A DNA stretch of 64,000 nucleotides from the NCBI RefSeq assembly GCF_017876775.1, contig NZ_JAGIOP010000002.1, positions 1,984,001 to 2,048,000 of the forward strand, given 5' to 3'. This document shows, in pieces, positions 58,310 through 60,992 of the stretch. Each line of letters opens with the position of its first letter. Positions within the stretch are counted from its first letter, which is position 1. The notes under the pieces are model-generated. The model did not search any database. It worked only from the letters and a program-made list of their open reading frames with translations, and was not told the origin of the DNA. The DNA is from Mycolicibacterium lutetiense. GTDB lineage: Bacteria > Actinomycetota > Actinomycetes > Mycobacteriales > Mycobacteriaceae. The translations under genes were made by a program, and so were the position numbers.

Positions 58310-58318
58310 GAGATGTAC

Positions 58319-59191
58319 GTGAGCACGATCGCGTTCTTGGGGCTGGGCCACATGGGCGGGCCCATGGCCGCCAACCTGGTGACGGCCGGGCACACCGTAC
58401 GCGGTTTCGACCCGGTACCGGCCGCGCAGGAGACAGCAAAGGCCAACGGCGTCAACGTGTTCGATACGGGCGCCGAGGCAGTCACCGGTGCCGACGTGGT
58501 GATCACCATGTTGCCCAACGGCACGTTGGTGAAGAGCTGCTACGCCGAGGTGCTGCCCGCAGCCACCGATGGGGCCCTGTTCATCGACAGCTCGACGATC
58601 TCGGTCGACGATGCCCGTGAGGTGCACAAGGTCGCGCTCGAGCACGGCTTCGCCCAGCTCGACGCGCCGGTGTCAGGTGGGGTCAAGGGCGCGGTGGCCG
58701 GCACGCTGGCCTTCATGGTCGGCGGTTCCGATGATGCGGTCGATGCGGCCCGTACGGTGCTGGAACCCATGGCAGGCAAGATCATTCACTGCGGCGCCGC
58801 GGGTGCGGGCCAGGCCGCCAAGGTGTGCAACAACATGGTGCTGGCTGTGCAGCAGATCGCCGTCGGTGAGGCGTTCGTGCTGGCCGAGCATCTGGGCCTG
58901 GACAAGCAGGCACTGTTCGACGTGATCACCGGCGCGACCGGCAACTGCTGGGCAGTTCACACGAATTGCCCGGTGCCCGGCCCGGTTCCGACCTCCCCGG
59001 CCAACAACGATTTCACGCCGGGGTTCGCCACCGCACTGATGAACAAGGATCTCGGCCTGGCGATGGCCGCGGTGTCCTCGACGGGTTCCTCGGCTCCACT
59101 CGGCACGCATGCAGCCGAGATCTACGCGAAATTCGCTGCCGACCACGCCGACAAGGACTTCAGTGCCGTGATCGAGACGCTGCGTAGCTGA
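58319..59191 (+). CDS. mmsB: 3-Hydroxyisobutyrate dehydrogenase
   Basis: MmsB oxidises 3-hydroxyisobutyrate to methylmalonate semialdehyde, the MmsA substrate. GTG 58319 is chosen because AGGAG lies 6 nt upstream, while the ATG at 58313 touches it. The 290-residue enzyme has IAFLGLGHMGGPMAANLV, DAPVSGGVKGAVAGTLAFMV, and the catalytic Lys in GAGQAAKVCNNMVL. Last gene of the valine unit. The missing hydratase and hydrolase steps are not encoded here. Confidence 0.95.
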   Translation: MSTIAFLGLGHMGGPMAANLVTAGHTVRGFDPVPAAQETAKANGVNVFDTGAEAVTGADVVITMLPNGTLVKSCYAEVLPAATDGALFIDSSTISVDDAREVHKVALEHGFAQLDAPVSGGVKGAVAGTLAFMVGGSDDAVDAARTVLEPMAGKIIHCGAAGAGQAAKVCNNMVLAVQQIAVGEAFVLAEHLGLDKQALFDVITGATGNCWAVHTNCPVPGPVPTSPANNDFTPGFATALMNKDLGLAMAAVSSTGSSAPLGTHAAEIYAKFAADHADKDFSAVIETLRS

Positions 59192-59206
59192 CAACGGGCC
59201 GCGAAT

Positions 59207-59252
59207 GTAACCGGGTGGCGGTGGCATTCAAGTTTCTCCGCCACCCCGTTAC
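59207..59252. repeat. Palindromic element A flanking the AbiEi-like gene
   Basis: Arms 59207-59221 (GTAACCGGGTGGCGG) and 59238-59252 pair over 15 bp with one mismatch around a 16-nt loop. Its reverse complement matches element B at 60127-60172 over the whole length, including part of the loop (GGAGAAA). The TAA stop of the AbiEi-like gene lies inside its right arm. The outer flank ACAAACG is shared too. Confidence 0.9.
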
Positions 59253-60085
59253 AAACGCGAAGCCCAGGCCTTGGCGAGCCTGCCGAGGACGTTGGCCTCG
59301 CCGTCGCGGCAGGTCACCCGGATGACGATCCAGCCCATGTCGCGGATTTCGTCGATCCGGGCGATGTCCTTGTGCAGAACGTCGGGATCGGTGTGGTGCA
59401 GCCCCTCGTACTCGATCGCGATCTTCAGCTCGGGCCACGCGTTGTCGACCTCCCCGATCAAGGCGCCGTACTCGTTGTAGATGGGGTACTGCGTCTGCGG
59501 CGGCGGGTAGCCCGCGCGAATAACCAGCAGCCGCAACCAGGTTTCCTGCGGTGACTCGGCTCCCGGGTCGACCAAGGCGATGCTCGCCCGTGCCTGTTTG
59601 ATGCCCCTGCGTCCGGAGTGGCGCCCCGCGGCCAGTTCGATGTCAGGAACTTTCAGACGAGCGGCGCGTGCCAGCGCATCGATCGCGGCCACGGCGGCAT
59701 CTTCGGGCAGTCGGCAGGCGAGGTCTACCGCCGTGCGGGCCGGGTTGGTCAGCCTGATGTCGCCGATCCGACATATTTCGTCGTCGTCGATCGCGTCGGC
59801 CCAGGCCACGATGCCTCGGGTCGGTCGCCGATTGGTGTCGAGGATGTTGGCCGGTAGCGCCGCATCGATCCAGCGGGCCCCGTGCAGCGCCGACGCGGAA
59901 TACCCGGCCAGCACGCCCCGCCGCCGCGACCGCAGCCAAGCCGCTTTGGCGCGCAACACTGCGGTGGGCCGGGTTCCACGCGGGAGGTAGACATCCTTGT
60001 GTACGGCGATGAACCGGGCGCGCAATTCGTGGCGGGTCAGCTTCCCGGCCGAAATCGCCTCGCTACCGATGAACGGTTCCACCAT
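59249..60085 (-). CDS. AbiEi-like / DUF559 putative nuclease-type protein
   Basis: A 278-residue protein. The N-terminal part (about 1-70, LTRHELRARFIAVHKDVYLP and GVLAGYSASALHGARWID) resembles the AbiEi antitoxin winged-helix/DUF4095-like module. The C-terminal part (about 190-278) looks like a Vsr/DUF559 restriction-endonuclease fold: GEVDNAWPELKIAIEYEG, then HKDIARIDEIRDMGWIVIRV. Such genes are multi-copy in mycobacteria and are often annotated as type IV antitoxin; no AbiEii toxin gene lies beside it. Framed by two inverted copies of a palindromic element, one supplying its stop codon. Its function is unknown. Confidence 0.85.
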   Translation of the reverse strand: MVEPFIGSEAISAGKLTRHELRARFIAVHKDVYLPRGTRPTAVLRAKAAWLRSRRRGVLAGYSASALHGARWIDAALPANILDTNRRPTRGIVAWADAIDDDEICRIGDIRLTNPARTAVDLACRLPEDAAVAAIDALARAARLKVPDIELAAGRHSGRRGIKQARASIALVDPGAESPQETWLRLLVIRAGYPPPQTQYPIYNEYGALIGEVDNAWPELKIAIEYEGLHHTDPDVLHKDIARIDEIRDMGWIVIRVTCRDGEANVLGRLAKAWASRL

Positions 60086-60126
60086 GCGGGAGAAGTGTGC
60101 CCGCGCCTACCGACACCCTCACGTCT

Positions 60127-60172
60127 GTAACCGGATGGCGGAGAAATTCGAGCTCCACCGCCATCTGGTTAC
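60127..60172. repeat. Palindromic element B flanking the AbiEi-like gene
   Basis: Arms 60127-60141 (GTAACCGGATGGCGG) and 60158-60172 (CCGCCATCTGGTTAC) pair over 15 bp with one mismatch around a 16-nt loop. It lies between the AbiEi-like start and the end of the HAD-like gene. By eye it matches the reverse complement of element A at roughly four of five positions over about 59 bp, with flanks ACGT and ACAAACG. Confidence 0.9.
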
Positions 60173-60194
60173 AAACGTGGGTGGACGGGCTGAC

Positions 60195-60992
60195 CTAGGC
60201 GGCCGACGGGCTGCGCTGCGCCCACCACTGGGTGTGCAGGCGCTGGCATGCCGGCAGACGCAGCGCGTCGGCACCGGCGAAGTCGGGCCGCACTGCGACC
60301 GCACCGGGTGAAACCGCACCGGCGTCGGGGTCGATCAACACGCCGGCAATCCCGGCTGCGTTGGCGGCACGCAGACCCGTGGCCGAGCCCACCATGGCCA
60401 ATGCGTCGTGGCCTGCCACGCCCAGTTCGGCCAAGGCTTGCCGGTACATCTCGGCGCCGGGTGCGCTCACGTCATCGATAGTGACGACGGTTTCCACCAC
60501 ACCGTCCCCGACCAGCTGGCGCACCAGCGGTTCGGCCCAGCGCCGACGGCCGGCCGCGACCACCCCGACCGGCAGCCCGGCCAGGAATGCATCGTTCACC
60601 AGATCCTCCAGACCCGACCGCGGCGTGAGGCCGGCGTCGAGGATCATCTCGTCGAACATCATGTCCTTGGTCATGCAGATCTCGTCGGCGAGCACTGCGG
60701 TCAGCACATCGCAGTCCGGCCCCACGCAGCGCTTGCGCAGCTCGGCGGTGACCCGCTGGTGCTCGTCGTGCAGTGCGAGCAGCTGCTGATAGCGCGCAAC
60801 ACCCCATTCGATGGGCAGACCGTGCGCGGCGAAGGCGGCGTTGAAGACAACGCGATGCCCGTCGACGTCGAGGTCCGACAGCGCATCGAGATCCAGGATC
60901 ACCGCACGCAGCGGATGGGCGCTCGTGTCAGGCTGCGAACAGTCCCACCAGAACCGCCCGGCCCGCCATGACTTCTCTTGTGTTGACGACAC
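60195..60992 (-). CDS. HAD-like hydrolase, phosphatase/mutase-type
   Basis: A 265-residue protein with a HAD fold: AVILDLDALSDLD (motif I, nucleophile Asp and second Asp), a helical cap (about 50-125), VGVVAAGRRRWAE, and a C-terminal AMVGSATGLRAANAAG plus VLIDPDAG region. The motif-IV acidic pair is not typical (GSATG in place of GDxxxD), so catalytic activity is uncertain. GTG 60992 gives the start, with GGGG close by. Its end lies 22 bp beyond palindromic element B. Mycobacterial genomes carry close relatives of unknown role. Confidence 0.78.
   Translation of the reverse strand: MSSTQEKSWRAGRFWWDCSQPDTSAHPLRAVILDLDALSDLDVDGHRVVFNAAFAAHGLPIEWGVARYQQLLALHDEHQRVTAELRKRCVGPDCDVLTAVLADEICMTKDMMFDEMILDAGLTPRSGLEDLVNDAFLAGLPVGVVAAGRRRWAEPLVRQLVGDGVVETVVTIDDVSAPGAEMYRQALAELGVAGHDALAMVGSATGLRAANAAGIAGVLIDPDAGAVSPGAVAVRPDFAGADALRLPACQRLHTQWWAQRSPSAA

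Follow-up and report, generated by a model that had tools for sequence, protein, structure and literature searches.

A gene of Mycolicibacterium lutetiense encoding a protein with an AbiEi-like part and a Vsr-like nuclease fold lies between two palindromes, both members of a family dispersed through the genome. The gene was found in a stretch of 64,000 nucleotides, referred to here as the window. We consider it probable that this is a REP-like mobile palindrome system, in which the gene with its two palindromes is an enzyme-bearing copy of the repeat family. We observe the paired architecture of gene and palindromes, the dispersal of the palindromes, a palindrome number that follows the gene, sites in filled, solo and empty states, and the presence of the gene in many genomic contexts.

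The gene and its flanking palindromes

In the window, the AbiEi/Vsr-like gene is situated between two convergent genes, mmsB and a gene for a HAD-like hydrolase (Table 1). The original prediction had described two hairpin elements of 46 bp around the gene, and both hairpins and the open reading frame were found where it had placed them, with one mismatch in each 15-nt inner arm and a loop of 16 nt. The full palindromes extend further, to about 60 nt each, with imperfect stems of about 21 bp and loops of 16-18 nt. The stop codon of the gene was confirmed to lie inside the downstream element, while the upstream palindrome is located approximately 35-94 nt ahead of the gene start. The proposal that one element is the reverse complement of the other holds for 77% over 62 nt, but a direct repeat fits as well (79% over 52 nt); because both elements are palindromic, their relative orientation is ambiguous.

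Table 1. Features of the locus, in window positions
Feature	Position	Strand
Downstream palindrome of ~60 nt with imperfect ~21-bp stem; the stop codon of the gene falls within it	59200..59259	-
Upstream palindrome, same family as the downstream one	60120..60179	-
Gene for a 278-aa AbiEi-like/Vsr-like protein (DUF559, MTES_1575 relatives)	59249..60085	-
Residues 1-173; predicted model resembles AbiEi antitoxin (6y8q)	59567..60085	-
Residues 178-278, Vsr/EDxHD-type nuclease fold (predicted)	59252..59554	-
TAA stop codon within palindrome arm (GTAAC); TTA on + strand	59249..59251	-
mmsB, 3-hydroxyisobutyrate dehydrogenase-like, left neighbour; left flank of empty site	58313..59191	+
HAD-like hydrolase gene, right neighbour; right flank of empty site	60195..60992	-

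The predicted model of the protein joins an AbiEi-like part to a nuclease fold like those of Vsr and I-Bth0305I. Pfam matches were obtained to MTES_1575, DUF559, AbiEi_1 and AbiEi_4, and profile matches to AbiEi (E 9e-8) and, weakly, to Zorya ZorE (E 0.012). Across 44 aligned proteins E181 and D214 are invariant, and H231 and D240 are kept in at least 90%; these residues are the candidate active site, and their assignment to the EDxHD motif, a name taken from PMC3943268, is our own. Two relatives in the window genome depart from this pattern: in L014 the H231 column is occupied by W, with H one column further on, and L015 is identical there. As H231 is not kept in these proteins, cutting may not be universal in the family.

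The palindromes beside this gene family are not due to chance. Across 79 loci of the gene family, hairpins with a score of at least 12 were present in 24 of 78 bins from -100 to -50 upstream and in 36 of 79 bins from 0 to +50 downstream, and at the same threshold in 0 of 2727 bins 600-1500 bp away. Alignment of left with right flanks gave a less clear signal, with a score above that of 99% of cross-context pairs at only 34 of 78 loci; some palindrome families resemble one another across contexts. In 25 palindromes of the window family, aligned gap-free for analysis of pairing, paired columns covary with a score of 0.375, versus 0.140 when shuffled and at most 0.134 when slid. Standard pairs make up 89.9% of the paired cells in this alignment, and changes on both sides of a pair affect 84 cells versus 28.2 when shuffled. 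A 60-nt stretch centred on the downstream hairpin starts exactly 11 nt before the end of the open reading frame in 33 of 45 downstream hairpins, and the arm variants GTAAC, GTGA and GTAGC provide TAA, TGA and TAG, so that a stop codon is retained as the arm varies. Membership of a known RNA family was rejected, the three matches being all far under the gathering score.

Palindrome families and protein clades

R1, a covariance model, was built from 25 palindromes drawn from 21 of the 56 loci whose gene is at least 50% identical to the window gene (close loci). The model matched 92 times in 421 kb of loci, with 89 matches within the flanking zones; two of the three matches outside these zones adjoin genes whose start was truncated in our annotation. 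R1 palindromes are present beside 53 of the 56 close loci, on both sides in 36 and on one side in 17, and absent from the zones used in the remaining three. They were also found at 32 of the 35 close loci that contributed no sequence to the model. Beside more distant relatives (less than 50% identity) R1 was found at 0 of 23 loci, which rules out a single universal hairpin for all DUF559 genes. A strong hairpin of another kind is present in at least one flank at 17 of these 23 loci and in both flanks at seven, and six have no strong hairpin in either flank. Other genes of the AbiEi/DUF559 family are thus also palindrome-flanked, as had been anticipated; the specific GTAACC-N3-GGCGG hairpin expected at them occurs with relatives above approximately 50% identity, but deeper clades carry different palindromes.

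The window genome (G000) contains eight matches to the window protein, and its paralogs have diverged (27-46% identical). Inspection that was partly by eye places L010 between GTCACGC palindromes, L014 and L015 between GAGCAGAC palindromes, and L011 and L012 between further palindrome types, while those at L013 and L016 are either weak or confined to one side. Of the eight matches the most distant is L016 (G000:C2:4268786-4269277), beside which a palindrome with 27-bp arms (CCAGTGATTTGTGCACC...) lies on one side only and some way off. Protein clades are paired with different palindromes, giving several such pairs per genome. At loci of the L014 type, GAGCAGAC palindromes are present on both sides in 27 of 30, versus 14 of 135 control zones; the count includes a low-complexity upstream match at L220 and is 26 of 30 without it. 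The 13-nt core of these palindromes varies across genomes and is common to left and right copies, which differ by 1.44 core mismatches versus 4.39 +/- 0.30 after random re-pairing of partners (0 of 2000 shuffles). As a pattern, the stem sequence of the flanking palindromes changes together on both sides of the gene. Two one-mismatch arm matches lying 1350 bp apart on C1 (L005/L006) form no hairpin and were set aside as chance; the open reading frame by one of them (L005, 1545-2834, 429 aa) resembles an IS30-type transposase.

The arrangement of a gene between dispersed palindromes recurs outside the mycobacteria, as the REP-like reading would predict. Curtobacterium belongs to the order Micrococcales, and the mycobacteria to the Mycobacteriales; Curtobacterium relatives are 31-32% identical to the window protein. 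Of the four Curtobacterium loci, three have palindromes of the type GGTCACGAA flanking the gene on either side, and one has such a palindrome on a single side; each of the matches listed spans 47 nt. Forward and reverse matches to this pattern number 11+14, 0+1, 4+5 and 14+8 in the four Curtobacterium genomes, with 0 for the reversed control. The genome with a single match is an exception to the rule that palindrome number follows the gene.

Dispersal, filled sites and empty sites

Nine R1 sites were found in the window genome, seven of them away from the gene. Distinct R1 sites number 23 in G041, 11 in G044, 7 in G003, 5 in G017 and 14 in G025, and in each of G000, G041, G044 and G003 two of the sites flank the gene. 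Palindromes of the GAGCAGAC type were present in 53 of 59 genomes, with up to 108 in one and 25 in the window genome, against 0 or 1 for the reversed-pattern control. GTCACGC palindromes were present in 13 of the 59 genomes and number 24 in the window genome, including three at the gene, against 0 for the control; they adjoin a family gene in all five genomes compared by position (G000, G005, G017, G040 and G044). Close tandem pairs of GTCACGC palindromes were observed at G000:C2:1298824 and 1298916, G040:C1:2239588 and 2239692, and G005:C11:43883 and 44012, with identical members in G040 and G005. Among 20 solo copies, 14 are overlapped by a mechanically called open reading frame of at least 100 codons, which says little in GC-rich DNA.

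Palindrome number follows the type of gene present. With both strands counted, the median number of R1 matches is 15.5 in the 36 genomes that have a close gene, taken as E below 1e-80, versus 2 in the 23 without (59 genomes, Spearman 0.59, p 2e-5, a value that ignores shared ancestry). The GAGCAGAC palindromes have a median of 20 in the 45 genomes with an L014-type gene (E<=1e-60) versus 2 in the 14 without, ancestry being uncorrected, and the six genomes with zero GAGCAGAC palindromes are all without such a gene. There are exceptions: G025 has no close gene to go with its R1 sites (best match E 9.6e-71); G046 and G041 have 24 and 12 GAGCAGAC palindromes without an L014-type gene at E<=1e-60; and in G029, G031 and G048 a close gene goes with two R1 matches each. 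In the window genome, four solo palindromes of the GTAGCGC/GTGAAGC type were observed (L151-L154, at C2:2084947, C1:1439540, C1:1273568 and C1:45987). In other species such palindromes flank a different gene, that of context 0, which was not found in the window genome, and it is possible that the four are relics of this absent gene.

The site between mmsB and the HAD-like gene was examined at 34 loci, 20 of which had both flanks located; the 14 with one flank are left out of the counts. The site is filled at five of 20 (the window, DL99, GA-1841, M. septicum and M. senegalense). One locus, L101 (G018:C28, ~66200-67100), keeps both palindromes around a gene broken in frame, two (G017 and G140) have a single family palindrome and no gene, and one (G077) holds another palindrome. 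The empty site that had been looked for in relatives is present at the remaining 11, where the aligned flanks are no more than 32 bp apart. Relatives were likewise searched for four solo sites of G041, and three of these have an empty counterpart. The fourth, L165, has none: here locus L201 carries a palindrome belonging to the same family and locus L202 another sequence. At site L156, L172 carries an unclear 56-nt insert, and the match of L170 to this site is spurious. In this comparison four of eleven target loci hold another palindrome at site L166, a convergent intergenic site whose counterparts (L170, L174, L200, L203 and L204) are empty in one species and carry different palindrome types in others. 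Inspection by eye of the mmsB-HAD and G041 junctions, in between-species comparisons only, revealed no target-site duplication or other insertion signature.

The 79 loci represent 30 different contexts, defined by no homology beyond 250 bp, the informative stretch being that from the palindrome edge to 250. In 837 cross-context pairs with a gene alignment of more than 600 bp, similarity extends at most to -103 and +55, which are the outer palindrome edges. A protein tree was made for 48 of the 79 loci, taken from 12 selected contexts and limited to stop-free frames of at least 250 aa. Contexts are intermingled on it, and that of the window forms a five-member clade within a group made up of other contexts. 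The M. wolinskyi copy (L054), which retains the downstream palindrome only, nests with M. setense of a different context with support 100/95. The gene with one or both palindromes occasionally turns up at a new place. The suggestion that gene and palindromes are a mobile unit agrees with the 30 contexts, the end of similarity at the palindromes and the empty sites, but it is the palindrome, rather than the gene, that mainly multiplies. Because the paralogs of the window genome have diverged to the extent given above, recent copying does not explain why the genes are multi-copy. Carriage as phage or plasmid cargo was considered and rejected; one phage record (a partial match) and seven plasmid records were found, all under 60% identity.

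Proposed mechanism, alternatives and known systems

Our model of a REP-like system is that the protein would recognise its own family of ~46-60-nt palindromes; it would probably act as a dimer and bind by its AbiEi-like part. The Vsr/EDxHD nuclease domain may then nick or cut the palindromes, and host repair would copy or capture a palindrome at new sites. The observed pattern, in which short palindromes spread and the gene stays low-copy, would be the outcome of this putative cycle.

The palindromes could instead be operator sites, the AbiEi-like part repressing its own gene and the dispersed copies forming a regulon. Both AbiEi and Rv2827c bind to inverted repeats within their own promoters (PMC7319586), the predicted model resembles AbiEi, and the upstream palindrome is located before the gene start. 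However, the second palindrome overlaps the stop codon, with the 11-nt offset seen in most downstream hairpins, the four G041 solo sites compared in detail have convergent genes around them in three cases and tandem genes in one (by eye), and the same sites are without palindromes in relatives. This explanation also leaves the nuclease domain unaccounted for, and we regard it as unlikely as a whole; an operator role for the upstream palindrome alone may coexist with a mobile system. An ordinary role as bidirectional terminators of transcription or as RNA stabilisers, with the place of the palindromes beside these genes a coincidence, would fit the location of several at 3' ends between convergent genes, and the different palindrome families borne by one intergenic site in different species. 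We judge this very improbable, since no T run follows either window palindrome, the palindrome families track a particular gene clade, and their cores match the flanks of that gene. Moreover, wobble is not favoured: the GU share among departures from pairing is 19% (68 hairpins) and 36% (36 of the GAGCAGAC-type palindromes), where by our own estimate single changes would give a third to a half. That GU pairs are not favoured fits a constraint on DNA. A terminator scan found 0, but admitted only loops of 3-8 nt, which excludes these hairpins.

Similarly, we give little credence to a homing or guard system, in which the nuclease would cut alleles or invading DNA lacking (or carrying) the palindrome, the palindromes would protect or maintain the gene, and dispersal would be a by-product. 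The predicted fold matches the homing endonuclease I-Bth0305I, which is reported to act as a dimer on a target near 60 bp (PMC3943268), and the profile matches to AbiEi and, weakly, to ZorE point in the same direction. Many palindromes at unrelated sites would, however, be unexpected for a single homing allele.

The REP-like reading thus has to be placed among the systems it resembles. Unlike I-Bth0305I and other EDxHD homing endonucleases, the window gene is not in an intron or a phage gene, and its nuclease fold is joined to an AbiEi-like part and accompanied by many dispersed palindromes. The Vsr endonuclease of very short patch repair acts on T:G mismatches, and here neither window neighbour is a methylase. 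The AbiEi-like fold of the predicted model recalls the antitoxin of type IV toxin-antitoxin systems, but there is no AbiEii toxin among the two window neighbours (mmsB and the HAD hydrolase), and a nuclease-fold domain is added. Dispersed palindromes are also a feature of the CGTC-tagged REPs, which are said to lack a dedicated transposase (PMC3733652); these were compared by description, and the term 'actinobacteri' is absent from the main text of that paper. An earlier survey of M. tuberculosis lists the hairpin families Myt-1 and Myt-8 (PMC2267715). A pairing of DUF559/AbiEi-Vsr proteins with palindromes was found in none of the open-access titles and abstract openings among the matches listed, a search whose scope leaves out most subscription papers and bioRxiv.

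The arrangement has the look of a small mobile DNA system of a kind so far unrecognised. We lean, with some reserve, towards the broader view that the mobile palindromes of actinomycetes form a class not described before, in which every family owes its spread to an AbiEi-Vsr fusion nuclease of its own. The class would be REP-like but independent of RAYTs and would use hydrolytic chemistry, with several families per genome and protein specificity and palindrome core co-evolving. If this is true, the dispersed palindromes of mycobacteria gain an origin and a dedicated enzyme. Vsr-like partners could be sought for repeats whose enzyme is not known, and the pairing of clades of one protein family with different palindromes makes recognition and co-evolution directly testable.

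The likeness to the geometry of REP palindromes and RAYT genes, part of the original prediction, holds. In REPtrons, REPs or REPINs with their RAYT, dispersed short palindromes flank a low-copy enzyme gene and each enzyme of a genome has a distinct palindrome (PMC3116915, PMC3733652); here too, the enzyme gene is low-copy and has palindromes of a dispersed family on its flanks. The two differ in that the RAYT is an HUH tyrosine (IS200/IS605-type) transposase, whereas the present protein has an AbiEi-like part and a Vsr/EDxHD fold, and in that the repeats here are single hairpins of 46-60 nt; where REP hairpins have a GTAG tetranucleotide at their foot, the 25 aligned window-family palindromes show no conserved GTAG at an edge. 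Our best reading is that the system works like REP/RAYT but with an unrelated, hydrolytic-type enzyme, which, if true, would mean more than one origin of REP-type repeat systems, with a different enzyme in each case.
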